Shown: positions 25,486 to 37,640 of the stretch, piece after piece | Position numbering within the stretch: the first letter of the stretch is position 1 | Layout of the letters: every line of letters begins with the position of its first letter | Origin: Alphaproteobacteria bacterium | GTDB lineage: Bacteria; Pseudomonadota; Alphaproteobacteria; Micropepsales; Micropepsaceae | Assembly: GCA_016124635.1 (NCBI GenBank) | Contig: WGNJ01000006.1 | Span: forward strand, 1-64,000 | Reading direction: 5' to 3' | DNA: 64,000 nucleotides | Translations under genes and position numbers: made by a program | The notes under the pieces: generated by a model | What the model was told of the DNA's origin: nothing | Database searches by the model: none | The model's input: only the letters and a program-made list of their open reading frames with translations

Positions 25486-26172
25486 ATGCCGCCAGTCGTA
25501 CCCGCTCTTCTTGCGCTCAATATCGTCGTCTTCTTGATGTGGCTCTTGCTCGGCCAGAGCCAGTTCATGATCGACAATTTTTTGATCAGCTGGGACGCAC
25601 TGGCCGCCGGCCGCTATTGGACTGTGTTGACGTCCGCGTTTTCGCACATCGCCTTCCTGCACATTTTTCTGAACATGTATGTGCTCGTGATGTTCGGTTC
25701 GATCGTCGAGGCGGTCATCGGATCGGGACGGTTCTTACGCTTCTATCTGGTCGCCGCAGTGATCAGCTCGATCAGTCACGCGGCCGTATCGGCTTTTCTG
25801 CTGCACAAACCCGATCTGCCGGCGCTCGGCGCGTCCGGTGCGATCTCCGGCGTGGTTCTGGTGTTCTGCTTCTTGTTCCCTCGGGCGCGGCTACTTCTCT
25901 TCGCCATCATTCCGATGCCGGCGATCGTCGGCGCGATCCTGTTCGTAGGCATCGATGCGATCGGCCTCTATGCGCAGGCCGGGGGCGGCGGATTGCCCAT
26001 TGGTCACGGCGCGCATCTCGGCGGCGCGGCGACCGGTGCTCTCTACTATCTTTTCTTCCTTCGCGGTCAGCGGCTGCAGCATTGGGGACCGCGCGACTAT
26101 TCGGACGTTACCACCTGGCGATCCATGTTGAGGCAATACCGCCGACCCGATTGGGACGGCGATGAGCGCTGA
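25486..26172 (+). CDS. Rhomboid-family intramembrane serine protease
   Basis: 228-residue polytopic membrane protein with about six helices. The catalytic dyad is present: Ser117 in GASGAISG and His177 in GHGAHLGG. HIFLNMYVLVMFG carries the conserved HxxxN loop that stabilises the oxyanion. Cleaves membrane-anchored substrates within the lipid bilayer. The soluble C-terminus is short and basic. Substrate unknown. It faces an EamA transporter gene, with only 3 bp between the two stop codons. Confidence 0.92.
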   Translation: MPPVVPALLALNIVVFLMWLLLGQSQFMIDNFLISWDALAAGRYWTVLTSAFSHIAFLHIFLNMYVLVMFGSIVEAVIGSGRFLRFYLVAAVISSISHAAVSAFLLHKPDLPALGASGAISGVVLVFCFLFPRARLLLFAIIPMPAIVGAILFVGIDAIGLYAQAGGGGLPIGHGAHLGGAATGALYYLFFLRGQRLQHWGPRDYSDVTTWRSMLRQYRRPDWDGDER

Positions 26173-26175
26173 CCT

Positions 26176-27048
26176 CTAGGCCCTTCGCTTCGCGCGCTGC
26201 ATGAGGACGACCGTGACACCGCCGAGTGTCGCGACGGCGGCAACGACGAGACGAACGCTGAGTTGCTCCGACAAGAAGAGCACGCCGCCGAGCGCGGCGA
26301 TCGCGGGGACCGAAAGCTGCACGGTCGCGGCGCTGGTCGCGCCCAGGCCCGGGAGCGCCGCGTACCAAATGACATAGCCGAGGCCCGAGGTAATCGCACC
26401 GGACACGACGGCAAGCCAGAGGCCGCGCGTGGTGGCTTCGAGGCCGATATTCATGGACAGCAGCTCAACCACGACGATTGCGGGAACGCAAAGGACGAAG
26501 GCACCCGTCGTCGCCGCCAAGGGGTCGCGCGCGCCGCGGCCGATGAGCGAGTAGAAGCCCCAGGAAACGCCGGCGATTGCCATCGACAAAGCGGCGGCGG
26601 GATCAGGTGCGGTTACGCCGGGTGACACCAGGTAAACGAGGCCGGCGATCGCTAGGCCCAAGCCAAGCCAGGAAAGCGGCGAGAAACTTTCGCCGCTCCG
26701 CAATGCCGCCGTGAACATCGTGAGCTGCACCGCGCCAAAGAGGATGAGGGCGCCTGTACCCGTGCTCAGCGAGATGTAGGCGTAGGTGAAGAAGACGACA
26801 TAGGCGAAGAGCATCAATGCGGCGCGCCAATTTGCTCCGGCAAGAATGTTGCGGTTGCCCCTCAGCAGCATGATGGCGCTCAGCGTGAGCGCGCCCGAAA
26901 CGACGCGGATGGTCGCGAACGAAGCCGCGTCGATCGTGTGGAAGCCGAGGGCCAGGCGGCACAGAACAGAGTTGGCTGCGAAGGCGATCATCGCGATCAC
27001 TGTGAGCGTGATCGTGCGGGTGGGAATTGAGAACGTGGGTTCTGCCAT
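26176..27048 (-). CDS. EamA/DMT-family permease
   Basis: 290-residue membrane protein with ten predicted helices in two homologous EamA halves, typical of drug/metabolite exporters (RhaT, YdcZ type). I use the ATG at 27048, 4 bp after the stop of the uracil-DNA glycosylase gene; a TTG at 27081 would overlap that gene. It is the last gene of the NYN-glycosylase-EamA series. Substrate cannot be inferred. Confidence 0.88.
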   Translation of the reverse strand: MAEPTFSIPTRTITLTVIAMIAFAANSVLCRLALGFHTIDAASFATIRVVSGALTLSAIMLLRGNRNILAGANWRAALMLFAYVVFFTYAYISLSTGTGALILFGAVQLTMFTAALRSGESFSPLSWLGLGLAIAGLVYLVSPGVTAPDPAAALSMAIAGVSWGFYSLIGRGARDPLAATTGAFVLCVPAIVVVELLSMNIGLEATTRGLWLAVVSGAITSGLGYVIWYAALPGLGATSAATVQLSVPAIAALGGVLFLSEQLSVRLVVAAVATLGGVTVVLMQRAKRRA

Positions 27049-27052
27049 GTGC

Positions 27053-27712
27053 TCAGCCGAGGGTTGCTTTGACTGCTGCAAAGACCGCCTCGAACATCTC
27101 CGTCGTCAGCTTGCCGGTGTTCGTGTTGTAGCGTGAGCAGTGGAAGCTGTCGAAGAGCGTCAGGTGCGAAAGCGTATGCCTTGCGCCATGGCCGAAGGTG
27201 AAGCGATTGAGCTTTTGGTCGAACGCACGCAGCGTTGCGTCGTGCGCGATGCGGCCGAGCGCGACGACGGCTTTGAGGTGCGGCATGTTTTCGAATGTCG
27301 CCTTGAGGAAGACCCGACAGGTTTTGGCTTCTTCAGGCGTTGGCTTGTTTTCCGGGGGGACGCAGCGCACGGCGTTGGTGATGCGGCAGTCGACAAGCTC
27401 GAGGCCGTCGTCTGAGCGCGCCTCGTATTTGCCCTTGGCAAAACCGAACTTGAGAAGCGTGCCGTAGAGCAGGTCGCCGGCGTAGTCGCCGGTGAAAGGG
27501 CGACCGGTGCGGTTCGCGCCGCCAACGCCGGGCGCGAGACCGACGATCAATAGCCGCGCGTCGTTCAAACCGAACGATGGGACCGGCGCATTGAACCAGC
27601 CGGCGTGCGCTTTTCTATTTTCCGTTCGGTAATCGACGAGACGAGGGCAGAGCGAACAATCGTGCGGCGGCTCTTCGGCGGCGGCAAGCGCTGCCGCAGA
27701 TGCGGCGCGCAT
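27053..27712 (-). CDS. Uracil-DNA glycosylase, family 5 (UdgB-like)
   Basis: 219-residue Fe-S uracil-DNA glycosylase. GLAPGVGGANRTGRPFTGD is the family 5 active-site motif, where the usual catalytic Asp/Asn of other families is missing; the cysteines in CSLCPRL, RCVPPENKP and AKTCRVF fit the 4Fe-4S site. Family 5 enzymes remove uracil and other deaminated bases such as hypoxanthine, an asset at high GC or high temperature. The ATG at 27712 shares a base with the TGA of the NYN gene (TGATG), so the two are translated together. Confidence 0.9.
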   Translation of the reverse strand: MRAASAAALAAAEEPPHDCSLCPRLVDYRTENRKAHAGWFNAPVPSFGLNDARLLIVGLAPGVGGANRTGRPFTGDYAGDLLYGTLLKFGFAKGKYEARSDDGLELVDCRITNAVRCVPPENKPTPEEAKTCRVFLKATFENMPHLKAVVALGRIAHDATLRAFDQKLNRFTFGHGARHTLSHLTLFDSFHCSRYNTNTGKLTTEMFEAVFAAVKATLG

Positions 27713-28326
27713 CAATCGCTGTCGAGGCTGACCGGTTGCGGCGGTACGTAAGCCTGCTGTTGCTGCTGATGGTTCTGATTGTACTGCTGACGCGGACCGC
27801 CCTCGCGCGCGATCGACGGCTGGACTTCGACGAGGTCGATGAAGTGATCCGCTTGGCGGCGGAGGTCATCGGCGACCATCGCGGGCTGGGTGCGTAAGGT
27901 CGAGACGACGCTGACGCGGCGGCCCTTGCGTTGCACCGCTTCGACGAGCCGGCGGAAATCGCCGTCACCGGAGAACAGGACGATGTGATCGACATGCTCG
28001 GACATGTTCATCATGTCGACGCAGATCTCGATGTCCATGTTGCCTTTGATCTTGCGGCGGCCCATCGAGTCGGTGAATTCCTTCGCGTTCTTGGTGACGA
28101 GCGTGTAGCCGTTGTAGTCGAGCCAGTCGACGAGGGGGCGGAGCGGAGAGTATTCGCGGTCTTCGATCAGCGCCGTGTAGTAATAAGCTCTGACCAGAAC
28201 GCCTTTCTTCGAGAATTCGGTCAGTAATTTCTTGTAATCGATGTCGAAATTCAAAGCGCGGGCCGTCGAGTAGAGGTTGGCTCCGTCGATGAACAGGGCG
28301 AGTTTTTCTTGCGGATAGAAGAGCAT
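27712..28326 (-). CDS. NYN-domain (LabA/DUF88) nuclease-family protein
   Basis: 204-residue protein of the NYN/PIN-like nuclease superfamily. The acidic metal site is complete: Asp14 in LFIDGANLY, the central Asp in GNMDIEICVDMM and the SGDGDF motif. The C-terminus is a Gln-rich low-complexity tail (QHHxQ-like run NQNHQQQQQA). Family members include RNases and regulators such as cyanobacterial LabA. ATG at 28326 preferred over TTG at 28329. Coupled by a one-base overlap to a uracil-DNA glycosylase, a link that hints at a nucleic-acid repair or surveillance role. Confidence 0.9.
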   Translation of the reverse strand: MLFYPQEKLALFIDGANLYSTARALNFDIDYKKLLTEFSKKGVLVRAYYYTALIEDREYSPLRPLVDWLDYNGYTLVTKNAKEFTDSMGRRKIKGNMDIEICVDMMNMSEHVDHIVLFSGDGDFRRLVEAVQRKGRRVSVVSTLRTQPAMVADDLRRQADHFIDLVEVQPSIAREGGPRQQYNQNHQQQQQAYVPPQPVSLDSD

Positions 28327-28412
28327 CAAGAACTCCCGAAATCACTGCAGTAATATCCGTGGACGGAGAATCCCGACCAACGTGAACAAGCTTTAACGCA
28401 ACCGCGGGATGC

Positions 28413-28445
28413 AAAAAAAGAGGCTACCGGGGCTTCAGACCCCCG
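28413..28445 (-). terminator. Rho-independent terminator after the SDR gene
   Basis: On the minus strand, CGGGG (28445-28441) pairs with CCCCG (28432-28428), followed 8 nt later by seven T's (28419-28413). It lies about 120 bp beyond the SDR stop and before the NYN start, so it separates the two transcription units. Confidence 0.6.
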
Positions 28446-28563
28446 ATTCTCCCCATTTTTCGATGATGCTCGCCGAATTTCCGATCCAGCAGCGGGTTTG
28501 AGGTAACTGCAAGGCGGGTTGGAGACAGTGATTCGCGGGCAGATTGGTGTCGCGAGCGTCAGG

Positions 28564-29409
28564 TCAGACGCGCTTGGCCCAATCGGCTCGTCGCGCCGCA
28601 AAGCCGGTGAGCGTGCGTGTCAGCCACCGCGGCGTCACTTGTGCCCACGCGGCACTCACTTGGTTCGGGATGCCGGGCACCTGGATGACACGGCCTGCCA
28701 TCAACGCGGCATAGCCCTGTTTGGCGACGTCCTTCGGATCGGAGATCAGCATGGATGGAAGAGAGGCCGCGGTCGCCGAGCGCGCTTTGACGCCCGCCAC
28801 CATCGCCGTGTCGGTCAGGCCGGGGCAGAGCGCGGTGAACTTCACGCCGGTGCCGCGCAACTCCTCGGACAAGGCTTCGGTGAGCGAGAGAACGTAGGCC
28901 TTGCTTGCGGCGTAGGCCGCCATCGTCGGCAGCGGCTGGAAGGCGGCGAGCGAGGCAACGTTCAGTACACGGCCGAACTTGCGCTCGACCATGCGCGGCA
29001 CAAGCAAGCTCGTCAGTTGCGTAAGGGCCGCGATGTTCAGCTGGACGAGCTTCATGACTTCTTCGGTCGACGTCTCCGAAAATGCGCCGACTTCGAGAAC
29101 GCCGGCGTTGTTGACGAGGATGTCGATCTCTTCCTTACGCTTGTCGAGATTTGCCACGACGCCCGCGACGCCTTTTGCGGTCGAGAGGTCGGCGGGCACG
29201 ACGATCGAATCCGTCCCGAATTCGAACTTCAGCTCATCGGCAAGTGCCTTTAGCTTGTCTTCGCTGCGCGCGACGAGCGCGAGCTTGTGCCCATGTTTCG
29301 CGAAGACGCGGGCCAGCTCGGCGCCGATCCCGGCCGAGGCGCCGGTGATCAGCACACGGCCCATCTCGCGCCCGCCGACGAGCTGCTTCTTCGGTTTTGC
29401 GTTCGCCAT
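28564..29409 (-). CDS. Short-chain dehydrogenase/reductase
   Basis: 281-residue classical SDR. NAD(P)-binding TGASAGIGAELA near the start, NNAG motif in ILVNNAGVLE, and the catalytic Ser and YAASKAY set. LARVFAKHGHKLALVARSEDK, with Arg after the second strand, suggests NADP(H) preference. Fits acyl-CoA/ketone reductases of the YqjQ/DltE type. ATG at 29409. It follows the phasin gene by 75 bp containing a strong hairpin, so it may be only partly co-expressed with the storage-lipid operon. Confidence 0.9.
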   Translation of the reverse strand: MANAKPKKQLVGGREMGRVLITGASAGIGAELARVFAKHGHKLALVARSEDKLKALADELKFEFGTDSIVVPADLSTAKGVAGVVANLDKRKEEIDILVNNAGVLEVGAFSETSTEEVMKLVQLNIAALTQLTSLLVPRMVERKFGRVLNVASLAAFQPLPTMAAYAASKAYVLSLTEALSEELRGTGVKFTALCPGLTDTAMVAGVKARSATAASLPSMLISDPKDVAKQGYAALMAGRVIQVPGIPNQVSAAWAQVTPRWLTRTLTGFAARRADWAKRV

Positions 29410-29432
29410 GCCTACCGTTCCCCAAACGAATG

Positions 29433-29463
29433 GCGCCCCGCCCAATGCAATTGGGCGAGGCGC
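29433..29463 (-). terminator. Long hairpin between phasin and SDR genes
   Basis: Fourteen-pair stem with one C-A mismatch and a GCA loop (arms 29433-29446 and 29450-29463). There is no T-run after it on the minus strand, so it is not a standard intrinsic terminator; it may protect the 3' end of the phasin mRNA or weaken read-through into the SDR gene. Confidence 0.5.
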
Positions 29464-29484
29464 TTCGACGACTTCTAGCGCTTC

Positions 29485-29910
29485 TTAGGCCGCCTTGCGG
29501 GGGGCGTCGCGAAAGGACGCGACGAACTTGCCGAGCGGCTTGAACGCCGACTGGCCGCCCATCGTCAGCATCTCGGTGACTTCGCGGATCTGCTTCAGAT
29601 TGCGCTCGAACGTCTCGCGCAGCGCCTCTTGCTGGATCTTGAGCGCGTCTTGGAAGTTCTCCGCCTCGAGGACGGCGCGCAGCGTCTCAAAACCCTGCGT
29701 CATGTTCTCTTCGGCATTGGAGATGACCTTGAGCGCGATCTTGCGGCTCTGGTCGCCGGCGAGGCCGCCGGCTTCGCGCAGCGCTTCGCCCGCGTCGCGG
29801 AAGCTGTCTTGAACGCGCGCGAACATCTTCGCGTTCGTCTCGGTCGCATGGACCTTGGCAGTGCCGTTGACCTTCGTCTTCGTGCGCCGCGCCTTCTTTG
29901 CAGTCGTCAT
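29485..29910 (-). CDS. Phasin-family granule-associated protein
   Basis: 141-residue helical protein of the phasin family. After a basic N-terminus (MTTAKKARRTKTKV) come heptad-like helices with LREAGGLAGDQSRKIALKV and FKPLGKFVASFRD. Phasins coat polyhydroxyalkanoate or lipid granules and control their size. The ATG at 29910 has GGAG 6 nt upstream; the in-frame ATG at 29922 lacks this. It is the third gene behind a wax ester synthase and an alpha/beta hydrolase, only 22 bp after the latter, so here it may coat neutral-lipid rather than PHB granules. Confidence 0.85.
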   Translation of the reverse strand: MTTAKKARRTKTKVNGTAKVHATETNAKMFARVQDSFRDAGEALREAGGLAGDQSRKIALKVISNAEENMTQGFETLRAVLEAENFQDALKIQQEALRETFERNLKQIREVTEMLTMGGQSAFKPLGKFVASFRDAPRKAA

Positions 29911-29932
29911 GTCAGTCTCCATCTGTGCTCAG

Positions 29933-30856
29933 TTATGCCGCAACAGATTGCGCGGCTGTTACCTGCGCGGAGCGGGCGTGAGCTATGATCAGCTCACCGA
30001 TCCGCGGCAGGAATTTCGCTGGCAGGTCGTGGCCCATGCCGTCGATGACCTCCAGGCGCGCGCCCTTGATGTTGCGCGCGGAATCGATGCCGGCTTCAAC
30101 CAACGCCAGAGGATCCTTGGATCCGTGAATGACGAGGGTCGGGGCCGTAATTTTGCGGATGTAGGGACGCAGGTCGCCGGTCGCAATGATTGCGGCGAGC
30201 TGTCGCCGAACACCGGCGGGGTAGTAGGAGCGGGTGACGGCCGCATCCAGCGTCTTGCGGAACTCGGCCTTGTCGGCGCCGGACTCGGGCGTTCCGATGA
30301 CATCCCACACCGCCATCATGCGGTTGAGAATTTCTTCCTTCGACTTGCCGCCGCGCGCCGATCCGCCGGCAAGCAGCAGCCCCATCGTCTCGCGGCTCGG
30401 GCGCGGCAGCCTCGGGTTGTTTGTGCCCGACATGATCGACGTCAGCGAGAGGACGCGATCCGGATGCTGGGCTGCCATCAGCTGCGCGATCATGCCGCCC
30501 ATCGATGCGCCGACGACATGTGCCTGCTTGATCTTCAGGGCGTCCAGCACGCCGACGGCGTCGGCGACCATGTTGTGCAGCGTGTAGGGCGCGAGATTGT
30601 TTACGCCAATCACCTTGGCGGCGATCTGAAACAACGGGTTCACGACGCGGCGGCCGTGGAACTTTTCAGTCAACCCGATATCACGGTTGTCGAAGCGCAC
30701 GACGCGGAAGCCTGCGTCCGTGAACATCTTCAACAGCGCCTGCGGCCACAACGTCATCTGCGCCGCGAGGCCCATGATAAGCAGGATGACGGGGCCGTCC
30801 TTCGGCCCCATCTCGTCGTACTCGATCTTGATGCCGTTCGCGGTGACCGCGGACAT
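29933..30856 (-). CDS. Alpha/beta hydrolase
   Basis: 307-residue alpha/beta-hydrolase. Nucleophile Ser118 in GASMGGM, acid in HGSKDPLAL, catalytic His near residue 287 in GMGHDLP, so the triad is complete. No signal peptide. It lies 11 bp after the wax ester synthase and 22 bp before the phasin gene in one operon. An esterase or lipase that mobilises stored lipid is the most natural guess, but haloalkane-type or thioesterase activities use the same fold. Confidence 0.9.
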   Translation of the reverse strand: MSAVTANGIKIEYDEMGPKDGPVILLIMGLAAQMTLWPQALLKMFTDAGFRVVRFDNRDIGLTEKFHGRRVVNPLFQIAAKVIGVNNLAPYTLHNMVADAVGVLDALKIKQAHVVGASMGGMIAQLMAAQHPDRVLSLTSIMSGTNNPRLPRPSRETMGLLLAGGSARGGKSKEEILNRMMAVWDVIGTPESGADKAEFRKTLDAAVTRSYYPAGVRRQLAAIIATGDLRPYIRKITAPTLVIHGSKDPLALVEAGIDSARNIKGARLEVIDGMGHDLPAKFLPRIGELIIAHARSAQVTAAQSVAA

Positions 30857-30867
30857 GCACGTCTCCT

Positions 30868-32379
30868 TTAGGCGGCGTTGTCGACCTTGGTGCCGTCGAC
30901 GGTAGCCAGTGACACTTTCTTCTTGCGCGAGCGCTTCTTGGTTTCGCCGGCGCGTTCACGCGGCTTGCCCAGAGTCGCGGCCTTCATTTCCTCAAACGAC
31001 TCCTGGATGCAGTCTTGGTAGTGCTCCGGATCCGGCATGATGTCTCGATCCGACGTGAACGAGATCGTGATGCGGCCGCAATTCGAGAACACAGGGTGGA
31101 TAATGCCCATGCCTTCGAACACCGGGCCGAGGCCATACTGGGTCACGAGGCGCGCGCCGTTCATATAGAGCGGAACCGGCGGACCCGGGATGTTGGTGAT
31201 CACGGTGTTGAACATCGGCGCAACGCGGTTAGCCAAGCCCAGGCCTACGTACAGACGGGCTGCGAGGCCGGTCAGCATCGACGGCGTGAACTTCGAATAG
31301 TCTGACAGCTCGCGCGCGCCGACAGCCTTCGTGAGTGCCTTTGAGGCCTCCGCTTCGTCGTGCGCGAACGTCAGGCGGGCGAGCGGGTCGGCGATATGCG
31401 TGCCGATCGGGATCGTCATCGCGGAGACCTGATTGCCGAGCGTGTTGCGCTCACCAGCGGTGCGCACGGAGATCGGGGCCATGGCCACCATCGATTCCGA
31501 AGGCAGCTCGCTCTTGCCCTTGAGGTAATGACGCATGGCGCCGCCGACGATGGCGACGACGACGTCGTTGACGGTTGCGCCCGGAACCTTCAGGCGCATT
31601 TCCTTCACGGTGGCGAGATCGAAGTCGCAGCCGCCGACGACGCGATGCGAACCGACCGAGCCATTGAAGCGCGTGCGAGGGACGCTGCCGAAGCCCGAGC
31701 GCAAGGTGCCGCGTGCAACGCCTTGAACCAGGCGCGCAAGACCGGGCAGTGTCTTGGCCACTTGACGGCCAAAGCGCAGTGGCAGCGCGATTGTGTTCAG
31801 CTGGGCGCGCGCAATGAGTTCAACCGAGCTTGGGGTGCGCTCCGGCAGCCAAGGCTTCTCCGGCGGCGCAATCGCCGTGTCCGGCGACGGGCTGTGCAGT
31901 GCCGTCGCGATGTCGACGCCCGAGACGCCGTCGATCGCGGCGTGATGAATCTTGGAGATGATCGCGTACGAGCCCTTCGGCACGCCGGGGATCTTGTTCA
32001 AGCCTTCGACGACGGTGAATTCCCAGAGTGGCTTCTTAAGGTCGAGCATGCGCGAATGAAGGCGCGCGGCTTGAATGCAGAGCTGGCGCCAGTCGCCCGG
32101 CTGCGGCAGCGCGATGTGGCGTACGTGATATTCGAGGTCGAAATCGGAATCCTCGACCCAGTATGGGTAGTCGATGTTGAGCGGCGGCGTGACGACCTTG
32201 CGGCGGAAGCTCTTGGCGAGGTGCAGACGCTCCTCGATGAAGCGGAGGATGTCTTTGAAACGAACAAAGCCGTTCGGCGCTGTCGAGGGATCGTAGATCG
32301 CGATGCCGCCGATATGCATCGGCGTCTTGGCGGTCTCCATGTAGAGGAAGGCTGAGTCCATTCCCGACAGCTGTTCCAT
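30868..32379 (-). CDS. Wax ester synthase/acyl-CoA:diacylglycerol acyltransferase
   Basis: 503-residue bifunctional WS/DGAT, which esterifies acyl-CoA to fatty alcohols or diacylglycerol to make wax esters or triacylglycerol. Catalytic HHxxxDG is HHAAIDG at 145-151; the typical start MEQLSGMDSAFLYMET, PLWEFTVVEGL, and the later NVPGPP-like TNIPGPPVPLYMNG are present. A basic C-terminal tail (KKRSRKKKVS) follows. Best known from actinobacteria and Acinetobacter; less common in alphaproteobacteria. First gene of the synthase-hydrolase-phasin operon, with its own promoter and a candidate TetR operator upstream. Confidence 0.95.
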   Translation of the reverse strand: MEQLSGMDSAFLYMETAKTPMHIGGIAIYDPSTAPNGFVRFKDILRFIEERLHLAKSFRRKVVTPPLNIDYPYWVEDSDFDLEYHVRHIALPQPGDWRQLCIQAARLHSRMLDLKKPLWEFTVVEGLNKIPGVPKGSYAIISKIHHAAIDGVSGVDIATALHSPSPDTAIAPPEKPWLPERTPSSVELIARAQLNTIALPLRFGRQVAKTLPGLARLVQGVARGTLRSGFGSVPRTRFNGSVGSHRVVGGCDFDLATVKEMRLKVPGATVNDVVVAIVGGAMRHYLKGKSELPSESMVAMAPISVRTAGERNTLGNQVSAMTIPIGTHIADPLARLTFAHDEAEASKALTKAVGARELSDYSKFTPSMLTGLAARLYVGLGLANRVAPMFNTVITNIPGPPVPLYMNGARLVTQYGLGPVFEGMGIIHPVFSNCGRITISFTSDRDIMPDPEHYQDCIQESFEEMKAATLGKPRERAGETKKRSRKKKVSLATVDGTKVDNAA

Positions 32380-32445
32380 TGTGTTTCCGTCCCAGAGGTT
32401 TGTTTGTTTAGGGGCCGATTATACCGCCGGCAGTTACTTCGCAGG

Positions 32446-32474
32446 TGCATATAAGAAAATGGAGTTGACGTCAA
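32446..32474 (-). promoter_or_regulatory. Candidate promoter of the wax ester synthase operon
   Basis: On the minus strand TTGACG (32474-32469) and TATGCA (32451-32446) are spaced by 17 bp, about 67 bp before the start codon. TTGACG lies inside the perfect palindrome TTGACGTCAA (32465-32474). The candidate TetR operator covers the -35 element, which fits repression. Confidence 0.45.
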
Positions 32475-32484
32475 TTATAGACTC
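32467..32484 (-). promoter_or_regulatory. Candidate TetR operator, site 1
   Basis: Minus-strand GAGTCTATAATTGACGTC matches site 2 at 33264-33281 in 12 of 18 positions, including the block GTCTAT. It overlaps the -35 element of the synthase operon promoter. Two sites only, so the motif is tentative. Confidence 0.4.
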
Positions 32485-32591
32485 TAGGGCCGCGTTGACG
32501 CAGCCCGTAAACGCGCAGAAATCCGCGCGAAATTGGCCGCGCTCCTGACGACTGCAACAATAGATTCTGGATGGGGTTGGGTGCTGCTTTT

Positions 32592-33227
32592 CTAGGCGGC
32601 GGCGCGGGCGCGCAGGACGCCGCGCAGCACGAGCTCAAGGGCCTGACGATTGGCCTCGGTCGCGCGGTCGGTGTCGCCGGTCTTTGCCCAACTGACCGCA
32701 ATCGCGTTCCAGGTGGAGACGAGCGATAGGCCGACGACATAGGGATCGAGATGCGCATCGAATTCGCCGGACTTCTGTCCTTCGCGAATGACCTCGGCAA
32801 CAAGCTCGACGAGGCCTTGGTTCACTTCGGAAAATGCCGCCATTGACGCTGGTTGCGCAACGAATTCCGTCACAAGTTGGCGCATCATATTTCGATGCTT
32901 GCGCCACTCGTCGAGCATCATCGTGCGCAACCGTTCGAGCTTTTCGACCGCGGTACCTTCGAAGGCTCCGAGTTCCTCGGCGATCTTGCTCGCGACTTCT
33001 TCGTTGAAGGCGGCGATGAGCGATGCCTTGGTCGGGAAGTGCAGGAAGAACGTCGCGTTGGCGACGTCGGCAGCGGCGCTGATCTCCTCGATCTTGACCT
33101 CGGCGTAGGGCCGCTTGGCCATGAGCTGCAGCGCGGCCTCCAAGATGCGCCGGCGCGTCTCGCGCTTCTTGCGTTCGCGGCGCGAGATCGTCGGATAAGA
33201 GGGCTGACTTTCTTTCGATTCCGTCAT
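32592..33227 (-). CDS. TetR-family transcriptional regulator
   Basis: 211-residue TetR regulator. N-terminal helix-turn-helix after a basic start (RRERKKRETRRRILEAAL, then VKIEEISAAADVANATFFLH); FFLHFPTKASL is the recognition helix variant of the family. The C-terminal ligand domain holds ETARS-unlike helices and cannot be matched to a ligand. Placed between the wax ester synthase operon (212 bp downstream) and a divergent hydrolase gene. A perfect inverted repeat GTCTA-N6-TAGAC 37 bp before its own start is a probable autoregulatory site. Acyl-CoA or fatty acid would be sensible ligands, by context only. Confidence 0.9.
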   Translation of the reverse strand: MTESKESQPSYPTISRRERKKRETRRRILEAALQLMAKRPYAEVKIEEISAAADVANATFFLHFPTKASLIAAFNEEVASKIAEELGAFEGTAVEKLERLRTMMLDEWRKHRNMMRQLVTEFVAQPASMAAFSEVNQGLVELVAEVIREGQKSGEFDAHLDPYVVGLSLVSTWNAIAVSWAKTGDTDRATEANRQALELVLRGVLRARAAA

Positions 33228-33263
33228 GGGTTACGCGATCTTGCAGCGCCGAAGCGCAGGGTA

Positions 33264-33281
33264 GTCTACATTGATAGACCC
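33264..33281 (-). promoter_or_regulatory. Candidate TetR operator, site 2 (perfect inverted repeat)
   Basis: GTCTA (33264-33268) and TAGAC (33275-33279) are perfect inverted arms around a 6 bp spacer. It lies 37 bp upstream of the tetR start and about 195 bp upstream of the divergent hydrolase, a normal place for an autoregulated TetR operator. Read on the minus strand it shares GGGTCTAT-like sequence with site 1. Confidence 0.5.
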
Positions 33282-33475
33282 AACTCTAATAATCTGTTTG
33301 CGTCCACGGCAAGCTGCCAGTCGCTAGCGTGGTAAATCTGCATCTGAATGCAGCGCAACATCATTGCAGGCATCGTATTCATGCCTTTGCAAATCTTGCC
33401 GCACCCTTCCTGGAACCATAGCTTCCTTGTGGAAAACTTGAGCGAATCGCTCGGGTTGTAGAGCGAGGACCACTT

Positions 33476-34279
33476 ATGGCGGTCGTTGAAGCCTTCGACT
33501 CCTCCGTTGCCATCAAGCCGCCGTCGATCGGCCTCGCGCTCATCGAGGGGCAGCGTGCGCTCGCCGAATTGGCGACGCTGCCTGTCGCTTCTCCCCTGCT
33601 GCGTCTCGCGCCAGGCGGCGACGGTCATCCGGTGATGGTGCTGCCCGGTTTTCTCGCCGGCGGCGGGACAACAGTTCCGCTGCGCCGATTTCTACGGTCG
33701 AAAGGCTACGAGCCCTTCTGCTGGGAGCTCGGCCGCAATCTCGGCCCGAAGGCGATCGGACCTCAGGGCGAACTCCTCGCGCATCGACTGCAGAGCGTTC
33801 ATCGCAAGATGGGCCGCAAAGTGACGCTGATCGGGTGGAGCTTGGGCGGCGTGATGGCGCGCGAGATCGCCAAGCAGTACCCCGACATGGTTCGCCAAGT
33901 TATTTCGCTCGGCAGTCCCTTCGGCGGAGATCCGAGGGCGAGCCATGTCTTCCACATCTACCGGGCAATTACCGGCCACGATATCGATCCGGACGAAATG
34001 GCCGAAGAGTTTGCGGCGCTCCGTGAGCCGCCGGCCGGCATCCCGTCGACCGCCATCTATTCGAAGACCGACGGCGTCGTCGCTTGGCGAACCTGCGTCG
34101 AGAAGCGCTCGGCTTTGACGGACAACATCGAGGTCTACGCGAGCCATTGCGGCCTTGGCGTGAACCCGGCCGTGTTCTTCGCGATCGCCGACCGCTTGGC
34201 GCAGGCCGAAACGGACTGGCGGCCGTTCGATCGGGCGAGTTCGTGGCGCCGTCTCATCTATCCCTCGTCCGGACACTGA
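33476..34279 (+). CDS. Alpha/beta hydrolase (lipase-like)
   Basis: 267-residue alpha/beta hydrolase. GHPVMVLPGFLAGGG is the oxyanion loop, nucleophile Ser122 is in GWSLGGV, and a His is found in ASHCGLG near residue 222. The overall pattern resembles triacylglycerol lipases of the cytoplasmic type and there is no signal peptide. Divergent from tetR and next to the wax ester synthase operon, so lipid turnover is a plausible role. Stands alone; folK follows after 94 bp. Confidence 0.85.
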   Translation: MAVVEAFDSSVAIKPPSIGLALIEGQRALAELATLPVASPLLRLAPGGDGHPVMVLPGFLAGGGTTVPLRRFLRSKGYEPFCWELGRNLGPKAIGPQGELLAHRLQSVHRKMGRKVTLIGWSLGGVMAREIAKQYPDMVRQVISLGSPFGGDPRASHVFHIYRAITGHDIDPDEMAEEFAALREPPAGIPSTAIYSKTDGVVAWRTCVEKRSALTDNIEVYASHCGLGVNPAVFFAIADRLAQAETDWRPFDRASSWRRLIYPSSGH

Positions 34280-34373
34280 TCGAGTTTTGCCGGGAAACCG
34301 GCGCTCTCGAGCTGCGTGACCTCGAAGGAACTTGGCGGTTCATGCTGCCGCCGCGGTGATCTAGTATCGAACG

Positions 34374-34868
34374 ATGATCTACCTCGCTTTGGGCGCGAAC
34401 ATGCCGTCGTCGGTCGGTTCGCCCGAGCAAACGTTGCGGCGCGTGTTGGCGTTGCTGCCGAGCCGCGGCGTGATTGTCGAGGCGGTATCGCCGTTCTATC
34501 GCTCCCCGGCTTGGCCCGACGCTGCGGACCCACCCTTCGTGAACGTGGTGGCGCGTGTGCGAACCAGGTTGCCCCCGGCCGATTTGATGCGCGCTTTGCT
34601 CCAACTCGAGAGCGAGTTCGGACGGAAGCGAACCGTCAAGAATGCGCCGCGCACGTTGGATATCGACATCGTCGACTATGCCGGCCTGGTAACGGATGCG
34701 CCGCATTTGATGCTGCCCCATCCAAGGCTTCACGAGCGTGCCTTCGTCCTTAGGCCCTTGTGCGATCTGGCGCCTGATTGGCGTCATCCCGAGACTGGGC
34801 AGACGGTTAGCGAATTGCTGAGGATTGTTGGGGAAGATGGACTAGAGCGGCTTGAATCCGCTCGCTAA
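34374..34868 (+). CDS. folK: 2-Amino-4-hydroxy-6-hydroxymethyldihydropteridine pyrophosphokinase
   Basis: 164-residue HPPK of folate synthesis, which transfers pyrophosphate from ATP to hydroxymethyl-dihydropterin. IYLALGANMPSS at the start, SPFYRSPAWPDAADPPFVN, RTLDIDIVDY and PHPRLHERAFVLRPL are the diagnostic motifs. Length normal. Upstream of rpoZ by 78 bp. No folP or folB beside it. Confidence 0.96.
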   Translation: MIYLALGANMPSSVGSPEQTLRRVLALLPSRGVIVEAVSPFYRSPAWPDAADPPFVNVVARVRTRLPPADLMRALLQLESEFGRKRTVKNAPRTLDIDIVDYAGLVTDAPHLMLPHPRLHERAFVLRPLCDLAPDWRHPETGQTVSELLRIVGEDGLERLESAR

Positions 34869-34946
34869 TTGGCCCAGCCCCCTTGCCTTCGCGTATGCAG
34901 CAAGCTAATTGAACGGATTGCCCTTGATATTGAGGTCTTTTCGCCG

Positions 34947-35330
34947 ATGGCGCGCGTCACCGTTGAAGATTGCGTGGACAAAATCCCGAACCGTTTCGAG
35001 CTCGTCCTCCTGGCTGCGCACCGCGCCCGGGCAATCAGCTCCGGTTCGCAGCTCGTGGTCGACCGCGACAACGACAAGAACCCGGTCGTCTCGCTGCGTG
35101 AGATCGCCTCGACCAAGATCCAGCCGGATCAGCTGCGCGAAGACTTCGTGCACAGCCTGCAGCGTCACATCGAGCAGGACGAACCCGAAATCCAGCAAGC
35201 GACGCTCGACGAGACGCCGGATGTGCCGGAATTTGCTCATATCTCCGAAGCCGACTACGCGCGCGGCATGCGCGCCGATACGGACAAGCGTCCCGAGCAG
35301 GTGGAAGAGGTTGACGAGGGCGAGGAATAG
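34947..35330 (+). CDS. rpoZ: RNA polymerase omega subunit
   Basis: 127-residue omega subunit. [20 protein letters not shown] and the RARAISSGS helix that contacts beta' are clear. The C-terminal half is acidic (EEVDEGEE), as often in alphaproteobacteria. ATG at 34947 chosen because this is the universal family start; the in-frame upstream codons look non-coding. Followed by rsh, as in many proteobacteria, with 117 bp between. Confidence 0.97.
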
Positions 35331-35356
35331 GGCCGCATCCCGGATCCTCGGAGAGA

Positions 35357-35377
35357 CGATCGGGCTTCGGCCTATCG
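35357..35377 (+). promoter_or_regulatory. UUCG-loop hairpin between rpoZ and rsh
   Basis: An 8 bp stem with one bulged C closes on a C(UUCG)G tetraloop, the most stable RNA loop class. It sits between the rpoZ stop and the rsh start, with no T-run, so it is more likely a processing or stability element than a terminator. Confidence 0.4.
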
Positions 35378-35447
35378 CTCTGCGCCTCACGCCGCATCGG
35401 CGGCAACACTTCGTTTTGGCAGAGTGCGCACATGGGAGTGATTGCCC

Positions 35448-37640
35448 ATGATGCGGCAGTTCGAACTCGTTGAACGTGTCAAAGCTTACGCGCCGGAGGC
35501 CGATGAGGATCTCCTCAATCGGGCCTATGTGTATGGCGTCAAAGCGCACGGCCATCAAAAGCGCGACTCGGGCGACCCCTATTTTTCGCACCCGCTCGAA
35601 GTCGCCGGCATCCTGACAGACCTTAAGCTCGACGAAGCGACGATCGTAACCGCGCTCTTGCACGACACGATCGAAGATACGCACGCGACGCACGACGAGA
35701 TCGAAAAGATGTTCGGCCGCGAGATCGCCGATCTGGTCGATGGCGTGACCAAGCTTTCCAAGCTCGAGCTCCAATCCGAGCAGACGAAGCAGGCGGAAAA
35801 CTTCCGCAAGTTCATGCTGGCGATGAGTAGCGACATCCGCGTACTGCTCGTGAAGCTGGCCGACCGCCTGCACAACATGCGTACGCTGAGCCACATCAAG
35901 AATGCGGACCGGCGCCGGCGGATCGCGACGGAGACGATGGACATCTATGCGCCGCTCGCGGGGCGCATGGGTATGCAACGGTTCCGCGACGAGCTCGAAG
36001 ATCTGGCGTTCGCCGAACTCAATCCGGAGATGCGCGCGTCGATCGTCAAACGGCTCGAGACGCTGCAGAAAGAGAGCGGCCAGCTGACCGGCCGCATCGC
36101 CGACGCGGTGAAGCGCAAGCTCGCCGAACACGGCCTCAACGCTTGGGTCACGGGCCGGCAGAAACGGCCCTATTCGATTTGGCGCAAGATGGAGGAGAAG
36201 CGAATTACGTTCGAACAGCTCTCGGACGTCTTCGCATTTCGCGTGGTCGTGAAGACGCTGGACGAGTGCTACCAAGCCCTCGGGATCTTGCACGGCTCGT
36301 GGCGCCACGTGCCCGGCCGCTTCAAGGACTACATCTCGCTGCCGAAGTCGAACAACTACCGGTCCCTGCACACGACGATCATCGGGCCTGAGAACCAGCG
36401 CGTCGAGCTGCAGATACGAACGAGCGAAATGCACGAGGTTGCGGAACGCGGCGTCGCGGCGCACTGGAGCTACAAGGACAAGGTCAACGGCAGGAAGCCG
36501 CTCGACCGGGTAGACGCTTACGAGTCATTGCGCTCGTTGATCGAGTCGCTTCGCATCGGCGATACGCCGGAAGAATTCCTCGAGCATACGAAGCTCGAAC
36601 TGTTTCAAGATCAGGTTTTCTGCTTCACGCCCAAGGGTGAGCTGATCTCGTTGCCTCGCGGCGCGACGCCGATCGACTTTGCCTATGCCGTGCATACGGA
36701 CATCGGCGACAGCACGGTGGGCGCCAAGGTGAACGGCCGCCACGTGCCGCTGGCGACGCCGTTGAAGAACGGCGACTCCGTCGAGATCATTCGCTCGCCG
36801 AAGCAAGGGCCGTCTGCGATCTGGGATCAGATGGTGGTGACGGGCAAAGCGCGTTCCGCCATTCGCCGTTATTTGCGGAACGCCGAACGCATCGAGCAGC
36901 AGCGCATGGGCCGCGCGATCTTAGAGAAGGCCTTCAAGGACTCTGGCCGCGATTTCTCGGAGAAGGCGCTCGACGGCGTTCTGAAGAAGCTGAAGCTTGC
37001 GAAGGCCGATGAGGTCTATGCGCTTTTGGCGCAGGGCACGGTTACGGCCGCAGAGGTGCTGACCGGCATCTTCCCGGATCTCAAGACGAGCGACACGATT
37101 GCGGCATGGTCGGCGTGGGCGACGAAGAAAGCGAAGGGCGCGGCGATCCCAATTCAAGGGTTGGTGCCGGGCCTCGCCTACAATCTCGCGCCTTGCTGCA
37201 ATCCGCTGTTCGGCGACCGGATCATCGGCGTTGTGACGCCCGGCACGGGCGTGTTGGTGCACACCGCGGACTGCGAGCAGCTCGAGCATGTGCAGGATCA
37301 ACCCGATCGCTGGCTCGACCTGCGCTGGGCCAAGGACGCGGCGAACGAACCGCAAGTCGGGCGCCTCAATGTCAGCCTCAACAACGAGTCCGGTGCCCTT
37401 GCCACGATGTGCACGGTGATCGCGCGGCACGGCGGCAACATCAGCAATTTGAAAATCACCAACCGCAATCCGCTCGTGTTCGAGCTCGTGGTTGACGTCG
37501 AGGTGCGCGACGTGAAACACCTCGCCAACATCATCGCCGCTCTGCACGCATCGCCGAGCGTCAACTCCGTCGACCGCCCGCATGGCGAGAAAGGACCTGA
37601 AACACATGACGCCGGAGCAAGTGCTGAGCGAGTTTCGTAA
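35448..37640 (+). CDS. rsh: Bifunctional (p)ppGpp synthetase/hydrolase (RelA/SpoT homologue)
   Basis: 730-residue stringent-response enzyme. HD hydrolase domain ([20 protein letters not shown] with His72-Asp73), synthetase domain ([32 protein letters not shown]), TGS domain ([24 protein letters not shown]) and C-terminal ACT domain. Both catalytic halves look intact, as expected for the single Rsh of alphaproteobacteria. ATG at 35448 has GGAG 9 nt upstream; TTG at 35442 also possible. The 3' end overlaps pyrE by 35 bp, coupling the alarmone enzyme to nucleotide synthesis. Confidence 0.97.

Follow-up and report, generated by a model that had tools for sequence, protein, structure and literature searches.

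Which kind of storage inclusion does a phasin serve when its gene lies in a row with the gene for a wax ester synthase / diacylglycerol acyltransferase (WS/DGAT)? Here, we address this question for a locus within the window, i.e., the whole 64-kb stretch of DNA that was analysed. The preliminary description of this DNA had proposed that the phasin coats wax ester or triacylglycerol droplets, partly on the grounds that no PHB synthase gene was seen in the window. We combined profile searches, comparisons of gene order, phylogenetic trees, and analyses of the intergenic regions to weigh this proposal against its alternatives.

Gene content of the locus

In the order of transcription, the closely spaced minus-strand row consists of the genes for a TetR-family regulator, the WS/DGAT, an alpha/beta hydrolase, the phasin, and an SDR-family oxidoreductase (Table 1). 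The genes described previously were all found in their places, and we confirmed the gaps of 11 bp between the WS/DGAT and hydrolase genes and of 22 bp between the hydrolase and phasin genes (with the phasin ATG at 29910), as well as the SDR gene as the next one in the row. An alternative in-frame phasin ATG at 29922 would shorten the second gap to 10 bp, and an alternative start at 29364 is possible for the SDR gene. A divergent gene for a lipase-like alpha/beta hydrolase, which lies outside of the range covered by the preliminary description, had been overlooked. Compared with their counterparts in the nearest relative, all six genes have dN values of 0.08-0.12 and dS values of 0.5-1.6, i.e., a dN/dS far below 1, and are under purifying selection.

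Table 1. Features of the WS/DGAT-phasin locus, with positions in the window
Feature	Position	Strand	Details and matches
SDR-family oxidoreductase	28564-29409	-	281 aa; PF00106, 178.6 bits
Hairpin between phasin and SDR genes	29433-29463	-	14 pairs; by folding
Phasin of the WS/DGAT-linked clade	29485-29910	-	141 aa; basic N-terminal tail; PF09361, tree
Alpha/beta hydrolase	29933-30856	-	307 aa; GASMG nucleophile elbow; PF00561
WS/DGAT	30868-32379	-	503 aa; HHAAIDG; TIGR02946, PF03007, PF06974
Promoter-like block upstream of WS/DGAT gene	32438-32474	-	TTGACG-N17-TATGCA, then CCTGCGAA
TetR-family regulator	32592-33227	-	211 aa; PF00440
PhaR-type box core	33349-33357		TGCGCTGCA on the minus strand; between tetR and divergent hydrolase gene; same place in L033
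Divergent lipase-like alpha/beta hydrolase	33476-34279	+	267 aa; GWSLG elbow

Enzymes of the WS/DGAT family join acyl-CoA to diacylglycerol or a fatty alcohol. The WS/DGAT of the window, the only one encoded in its genome, scored 434 bits against TIGR02946 (cut-off 310), both of its Pfam domains exceeded their curated cut-offs (PF03007, 221 bits; PF06974, 113 bits), and the HHxxxDG active-site motif is present at residue 145. The solved structures 7nxg (187 bits) and 6chj (176 bits) align with this protein over its full length and share the conserved histidine motif, although both are distant from it in sequence.

The operon hydrolase, whose best solved relative is 8pzg "ORF17" (238 bits), is probably an esterase or lipase, as judged from its sequence, and triacylglycerol lipases are among the weak solved relatives of the divergent lipase-like protein. 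We found a lipase-like gene at most 1.2 kb from the WS/DGAT gene in 63 of 71 loci outside of the genus (L042-L112), which belong to other alphaproteobacteria and, in some cases, to beta- or gammaproteobacteria and mostly have no phasin gene there. Hence, no other partner of this WS/DGAT is as widely conserved as the lipase-like gene, and the genes for the operon hydrolase and the phasin are additions of narrower distribution; the pair of WS/DGAT and lipase-like gene is also more widespread than the link to the phasin. Three betaproteobacterial loci (L098, L101, and L110) combine two WS/DGAT genes with the lipase-like gene and a gene related to that of the operon hydrolase (46-47% identity) and lack a phasin gene. 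For the SDR, the best model was a mycolate reductase, with a score far under the cut-off of that model, and the TetR-family regulator scored 51.3 bits against the FadR-type NF053878 equivalog (cut-off 200), with similar models also under their cut-offs.

Conservation of the gene order

We detected WS/DGAT in 25 of 337 alphaproteobacterial genomes, each at least 90% complete, and the earlier statement that WS/DGAT genes are not typical of alphaproteobacteria is therefore fair. Within the genus, ten of 11 genomes, the window genome counted, have a WS/DGAT gene at 73% identity or more (73-89%). The order divergent hydrolase-TetR-WS/DGAT-hydrolase-phasin-SDR is kept in all nine of these genomes with enough contig; in the tenth (L037), the contig stops short of the phasin gene. 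The five-gene row is also present in family f76 (L190), and a shorter WS/DGAT-hydrolase-phasin row is present in family f105 (L187 and L189); the WS/DGATs of these two families have 59-64% identity, and their lipase-like gene is located downstream in convergent orientation. Other layouts include a phasin gene immediately upstream of the WS/DGAT gene in f31 (L183, L184, and L185), the order hydrolase-phasin-WS/DGAT in two further f105 loci (L186 and L188), and phasin genes on both sides in f55 (L182). Based on the WS/DGAT tree, in which the cut contig L037 was scored as "no phasin," the label "phasin nearby" must have changed six times or more along branches with good support.

The adjacency of WS/DGAT and phasin genes, which the preliminary description had suggested searching for, is thus conserved in the genus, f76, and f105 and takes other forms in f31 and f55. 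In the class sample with the window's own genome left out, a phasin gene lies within ~3 kb of the WS/DGAT gene in 6/24 WS/DGAT genomes, while the numbers of genes and the sizes of the genomes predict 0.28 pairs (P ~1.5e-7 for at least six genomes, a value that assumes independent genomes and is overstated by kinship, as two families account for four of the six). Because the row is kept in the genus (at 73-89% WS/DGAT identity) and in another family (at 59%), and because dN/dS is far below 1, it does not represent a chance arrangement. As judged by form, i.e., by the short gaps and the order conserved across genomes, the genes make up one unit, as had been proposed.

The f76 locus has an additional feature. 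Beside its WS/DGAT operon, L190:13358-15406 contains a second phasin gene, a weak PF05597 match, and a gene for a 358-aa PhaC-like protein (partial PhaC_N). The sequence of this region would be compatible with a short PHA synthase cluster joined to the WS/DGAT operon, which we consider possible.

The operon phasin

The phasin scored 51.5 bits against PF09361 (cut-off 24.9) and 54 bits against the TIGR01985 equivalog, below the cut-off of 99.7; by these matches, the operon protein is a phasin, though not the standard one. In a tree of 41 phasin sequences, one clade (SH-aLRT 98) unites the phasins encoded in the operons of the genus, f105, and f76. The second phasin of L190 also falls within this clade, and the other phasin type of f105 joins it (89). 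The remaining phasins of the genus genomes are placed elsewhere in the tree, and the f31 phasins group with one of those types. A profile of the operon phasins, which was built partly from clade members that it then scored, gave at least 64 bits inside the clade, 47 bits for one f55 phasin, and at most 34 bits for PHB-type phasins. With this profile, 13 of the 337 class genomes had a match at E 1e-9 or better. WS/DGAT is present in eight of these 13 genomes versus 17 of the 324 genomes without such a match (Fisher p 3e-7, which is overstated because the genomes are related), and in the four genomes with the best matches, the match adjoins WS/DGAT. An exception is G146, which has a 74-bit clade match and no WS/DGAT. 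Altogether, the clade of the operon phasin is distinct from the other phasins encoded in the genome and tracks the presence of WS/DGAT.

The AlphaFold model of the phasin, which is of low confidence (mean pLDDT 58.5), has long helices at residues 22-82 and 86-134 after a disordered start. Over the first 40 residues, the operon phasins of the genus and f76 carry net charges between +4 and +8, compared with +7 to +8 for the other f105 phasin type and -3 to +3 for other phasins, excepting two long, probably mis-started frames; the basic tail is absent from two f105 operon phasins. It is our guess, by analogy, that the basic and probably disordered N-terminal tail could tie droplets to DNA.

PHB genes in the window genome and its relatives

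The window genome contains two phaC genes, both of which are on other contigs, a single phaR gene (PF07879, G000:C25:200004), and four Phasin_2 genes over the cut-off, the operon phasin gene included, in addition to one weak match. No phaC gene is present within the 64-kb window. The statement that the window has no PHB synthase gene is, consequently, correct yet misleading with regard to the genome, which has two phaC genes, phaR, and at least three other phasin genes. Across the genus, phaC is present in ten of 11 genomes, and no phaC gene lies near the operon phasin gene in the genus, f31, f55, and f105.

In the family of the window genome, ten of the 13 genomes without Phasin_2 are also without phaC, and phasins in this family therefore follow PHB storage in general. 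Ten genomes from a single sister genus, several of which are near complete, lack both phaC and Phasin_2 (G016, G017, G020, G021, G024, G026, G028, G052, G065, and G078), as expected if PHB storage was lost as a unit. In one species of the genus (G090), the gene for a short phasin is located 11 bp before phaC (L204:6877-9167), and the relatives of these two genes in the window genome sit on separate contigs.

Promoter regions and PhaR-type boxes

The published PhaR site is TGCRNYGCASMA (PMC6201568); we searched for its core, TGCRNYGCA, only. In the 250 bp upstream of the WS/DGAT genes of the genus (2.25 kb in total), we identified 12 core boxes, distributed over eight of nine loci, compared with seven in the remaining 97 kb of these loci, corresponding to a 74-fold enrichment. 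Among the distant WS/DGAT-phasin loci, seven upstream core boxes in 2.2 kb compare with 11 in 109 kb. Because the box sites are inherited among related species and are not independent, p-values overstate the case. In four species of the genus, paired boxes upstream of WS/DGAT are 58-59 bp apart. In the window genome, the major gene for a PHB-type phasin has two boxes ~57 bp apart, and three orthologues have such a pair as well. The boxes of the sister-species operons thus share the arrangement of those at this phasin gene. In the window species, the WS/DGAT promoter region (32380-32591) contains no PhaR-type box, and none was found there in the nearest relative (L033).

Because a sigma-70 scan returned no minus-strand promoter at the locus, the promoter-like block upstream of the WS/DGAT gene was judged by its conservation: it is almost identical across the genus and recognisable, by eye, in L187, L189, and L190. 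In most species of the genus, a palindrome TCTA-N4-6-TAGA, also identified by eye, is located in the region upstream of tetR (33228-33475 in the window; L033-L041). The palindrome in the window, GTCTATCAATGTAGAC, is a candidate operator for autoregulation by the TetR-family protein.

A hairpin downstream of the phasin gene

The hairpin between the phasin and SDR genes has a z-score of -3.5 in the window, -3.7 to -5.7 in eight other loci, and -0.9 in L033, and a long stem that differs in sequence is present at this place in all ten loci folded. A terminator scan, whose total was at chance level, lists the hairpin as resembling a terminator, with a weak T-rich tail. Because an Rfam search of positions 26000-36000 gave no match, the hairpin does not represent a known family. 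It is probably a stability element or a partial stop, favouring the phasin over the SDR.

Function of the operon and alternative explanations

Building on the gene content, synteny, phasin clade, purifying selection, box enrichment, and hairpin established here, we consider it rather probable that this locus is an operon for neutral-lipid storage that includes a phasin of its own and that it is linked to PHB control via PhaR. According to this model, WS/DGAT would make wax ester or triacylglycerol, the phasin, as a member of the clade that travels with WS/DGAT, would coat the resulting droplets, and the operon hydrolase together with the divergent lipase-like hydrolase would mobilise the stored lipid. 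The SDR could work on an acyl or alcohol intermediate, while the TetR-family regulator may sense acyl-CoA. In most sister species, PhaR sequestered by PHB granules would probably free the operon once storage granules form; in the window species, the box between tetR and the divergent hydrolase gene suggests that control by PhaR would be indirect. The hairpin probably acts by stabilising or terminating part of the mRNA, such that the phasin would be made in preference to the SDR.

The two phaC genes, phaR, and the at least three other phasin genes, together with the PhaR-type boxes in eight sister species, argue for a probable connection of the operon to PHB physiology, as opposed to a separate system. 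The proposal of a phasin for wax ester or triacylglycerol droplets is supported in part, namely by the separate, WS/DGAT-tied clade and by synteny in several families, whereas the argument from a missing PHB synthase does not carry it. Counting against our model are the PhaR-type boxes and the two phaC genes, with which a phasin of PHB granules would likewise agree, the window promoter without a box, the G146 exception, and the two f105 operon phasins without the basic tail.

A phasin of PHB granules or mixed granules that shares an operon with WS/DGAT as both answer carbon surplus is a tangible possibility, albeit an unlikely one; in that scenario, the neutral lipid would be a minor part of PHB granules or form separate, uncoated droplets. 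Such a function would agree with the presence of phaC and phaR in the window genome and of phaC in all but one of the genus genomes, with the finding that the operon, like the major gene for a PHB-type phasin, has PhaR-type boxes in eight sister species, and with the lack of phaC in most phasin-less genomes of the family. However, the clade of the operon phasin excludes the PHB-type phasins found in these genomes and tracks WS/DGAT instead, and phaC genes are not found near the operon phasin gene in the four groups examined. Members of the WS/DGAT family have a broad acceptor range, and it has to be considered that the enzyme acylates another alcohol to give a membrane, cell-wall, or exported lipid, with the phasin being a chaperone-like or surface protein. 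While the best model for the SDR, a mycolate reductase, points in this direction, albeit far under its cut-off, we regard such a function as highly unlikely in view of the WS/DGAT score over the TIGR02946 cut-off, the full active-site motif, and the phasin and PhaR-type boxes, which suggest storage inclusions. Finally, in the class sample, the majority of the genomes that encode WS/DGAT lack a phasin gene near it, as would be the case if the phasin gene were a chance neighbour without a shared role. We rejected this idea, which is scarcely credible given that the order recurs in another family and other layouts occur in more families, that the adjacency has a P of ~1.5e-7 under independence of genomes, and that the gaps are only 11 and 22 bp.

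Returning to the neutral-lipid storage operon, the boxes in most sister species suggest that oil-droplet storage and bioplastic (PHB) storage are wired together. It is conceivable, though quite unlikely, that PhaR senses the surfaces of polyester and oil droplets alike, making it one repressor for two carbon stores of different chemistry, and that the basic-tailed phasin is a proteobacterial lipid-droplet coat tying droplets to the nucleoid. The link between the two storage systems can be tested in any cultured relative that has the operon, given that the small size of the phasin gene, of the promoter boxes, and of the hairpin permits each of them to be deleted or swapped.

Comparison with known systems

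A study from 2023 (PMC10351704) described alphaproteobacterial WS/DGAT genes with nearby PHA genes in Ahrensia sp. R2A130 and Sulfitobacter sediminilitoris, a phasin gene near one betaproteobacterial WS/DGAT gene, and alpha/beta hydrolase genes adjoining WS/DGAT genes in gammaproteobacteria. Therefore, a general link between WS/DGAT and PHA genes has already been published. The Ahrensia and Sulfitobacter loci, in which genes for PHA metabolism and regulation lie near WS/DGAT, are comparable to the operon of the window; however, the descriptions of these alphaproteobacterial clusters name no phasin, hydrolase-phasin-SDR operon, or PhaR boxes. In a search of mainly open-access literature, we found no publication on the phasin clade, on PhaR boxes at WS/DGAT genes, or on the hairpin.

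In Sinorhizobium, PHB sequesters PhaR and thereby relieves phasin repression, and the PhaR binding sites are near the -35 and -10 elements (PMC12542648). PhaP1 and PhaP2 of Sinorhizobium (PMC12542648) and PhaP1 and PhaP4 of Bradyrhizobium (PMC6201568) share the Phasin_2 domain with the operon phasin, and, as in these PhaR-controlled PHB phasin genes, PhaR-type boxes lie near a promoter in the sister-species operons, while the promoter in the window has no box. Unlike these PHB phasins, the operon phasin is encoded in a WS/DGAT operon, belongs to a separate clade, and has a basic tail. MLDS of Rhodococcus jostii (PMC5504291) and PhaM of Ralstonia (PMC3556143) are inclusion proteins that bind DNA and tie inclusions to it; we speculate that the basic tail of the operon phasin could have the same role.

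As cited in PMC6273058, PhaP1 of Ralstonia goes to triacylglycerol inclusions of Rhodococcus and Mycobacterium (Haenisch 2006). According to this citation, a foreign phasin was placed in another host, whereas the phasin gene analysed here is native to a WS/DGAT operon. Moreover, a granule protein of Rhodococcus ruber was isolated from lipid inclusions (PMC5658603). Together with PhaP1, as far as the cited account goes, this protein makes a lipid-coating phasin plausible.
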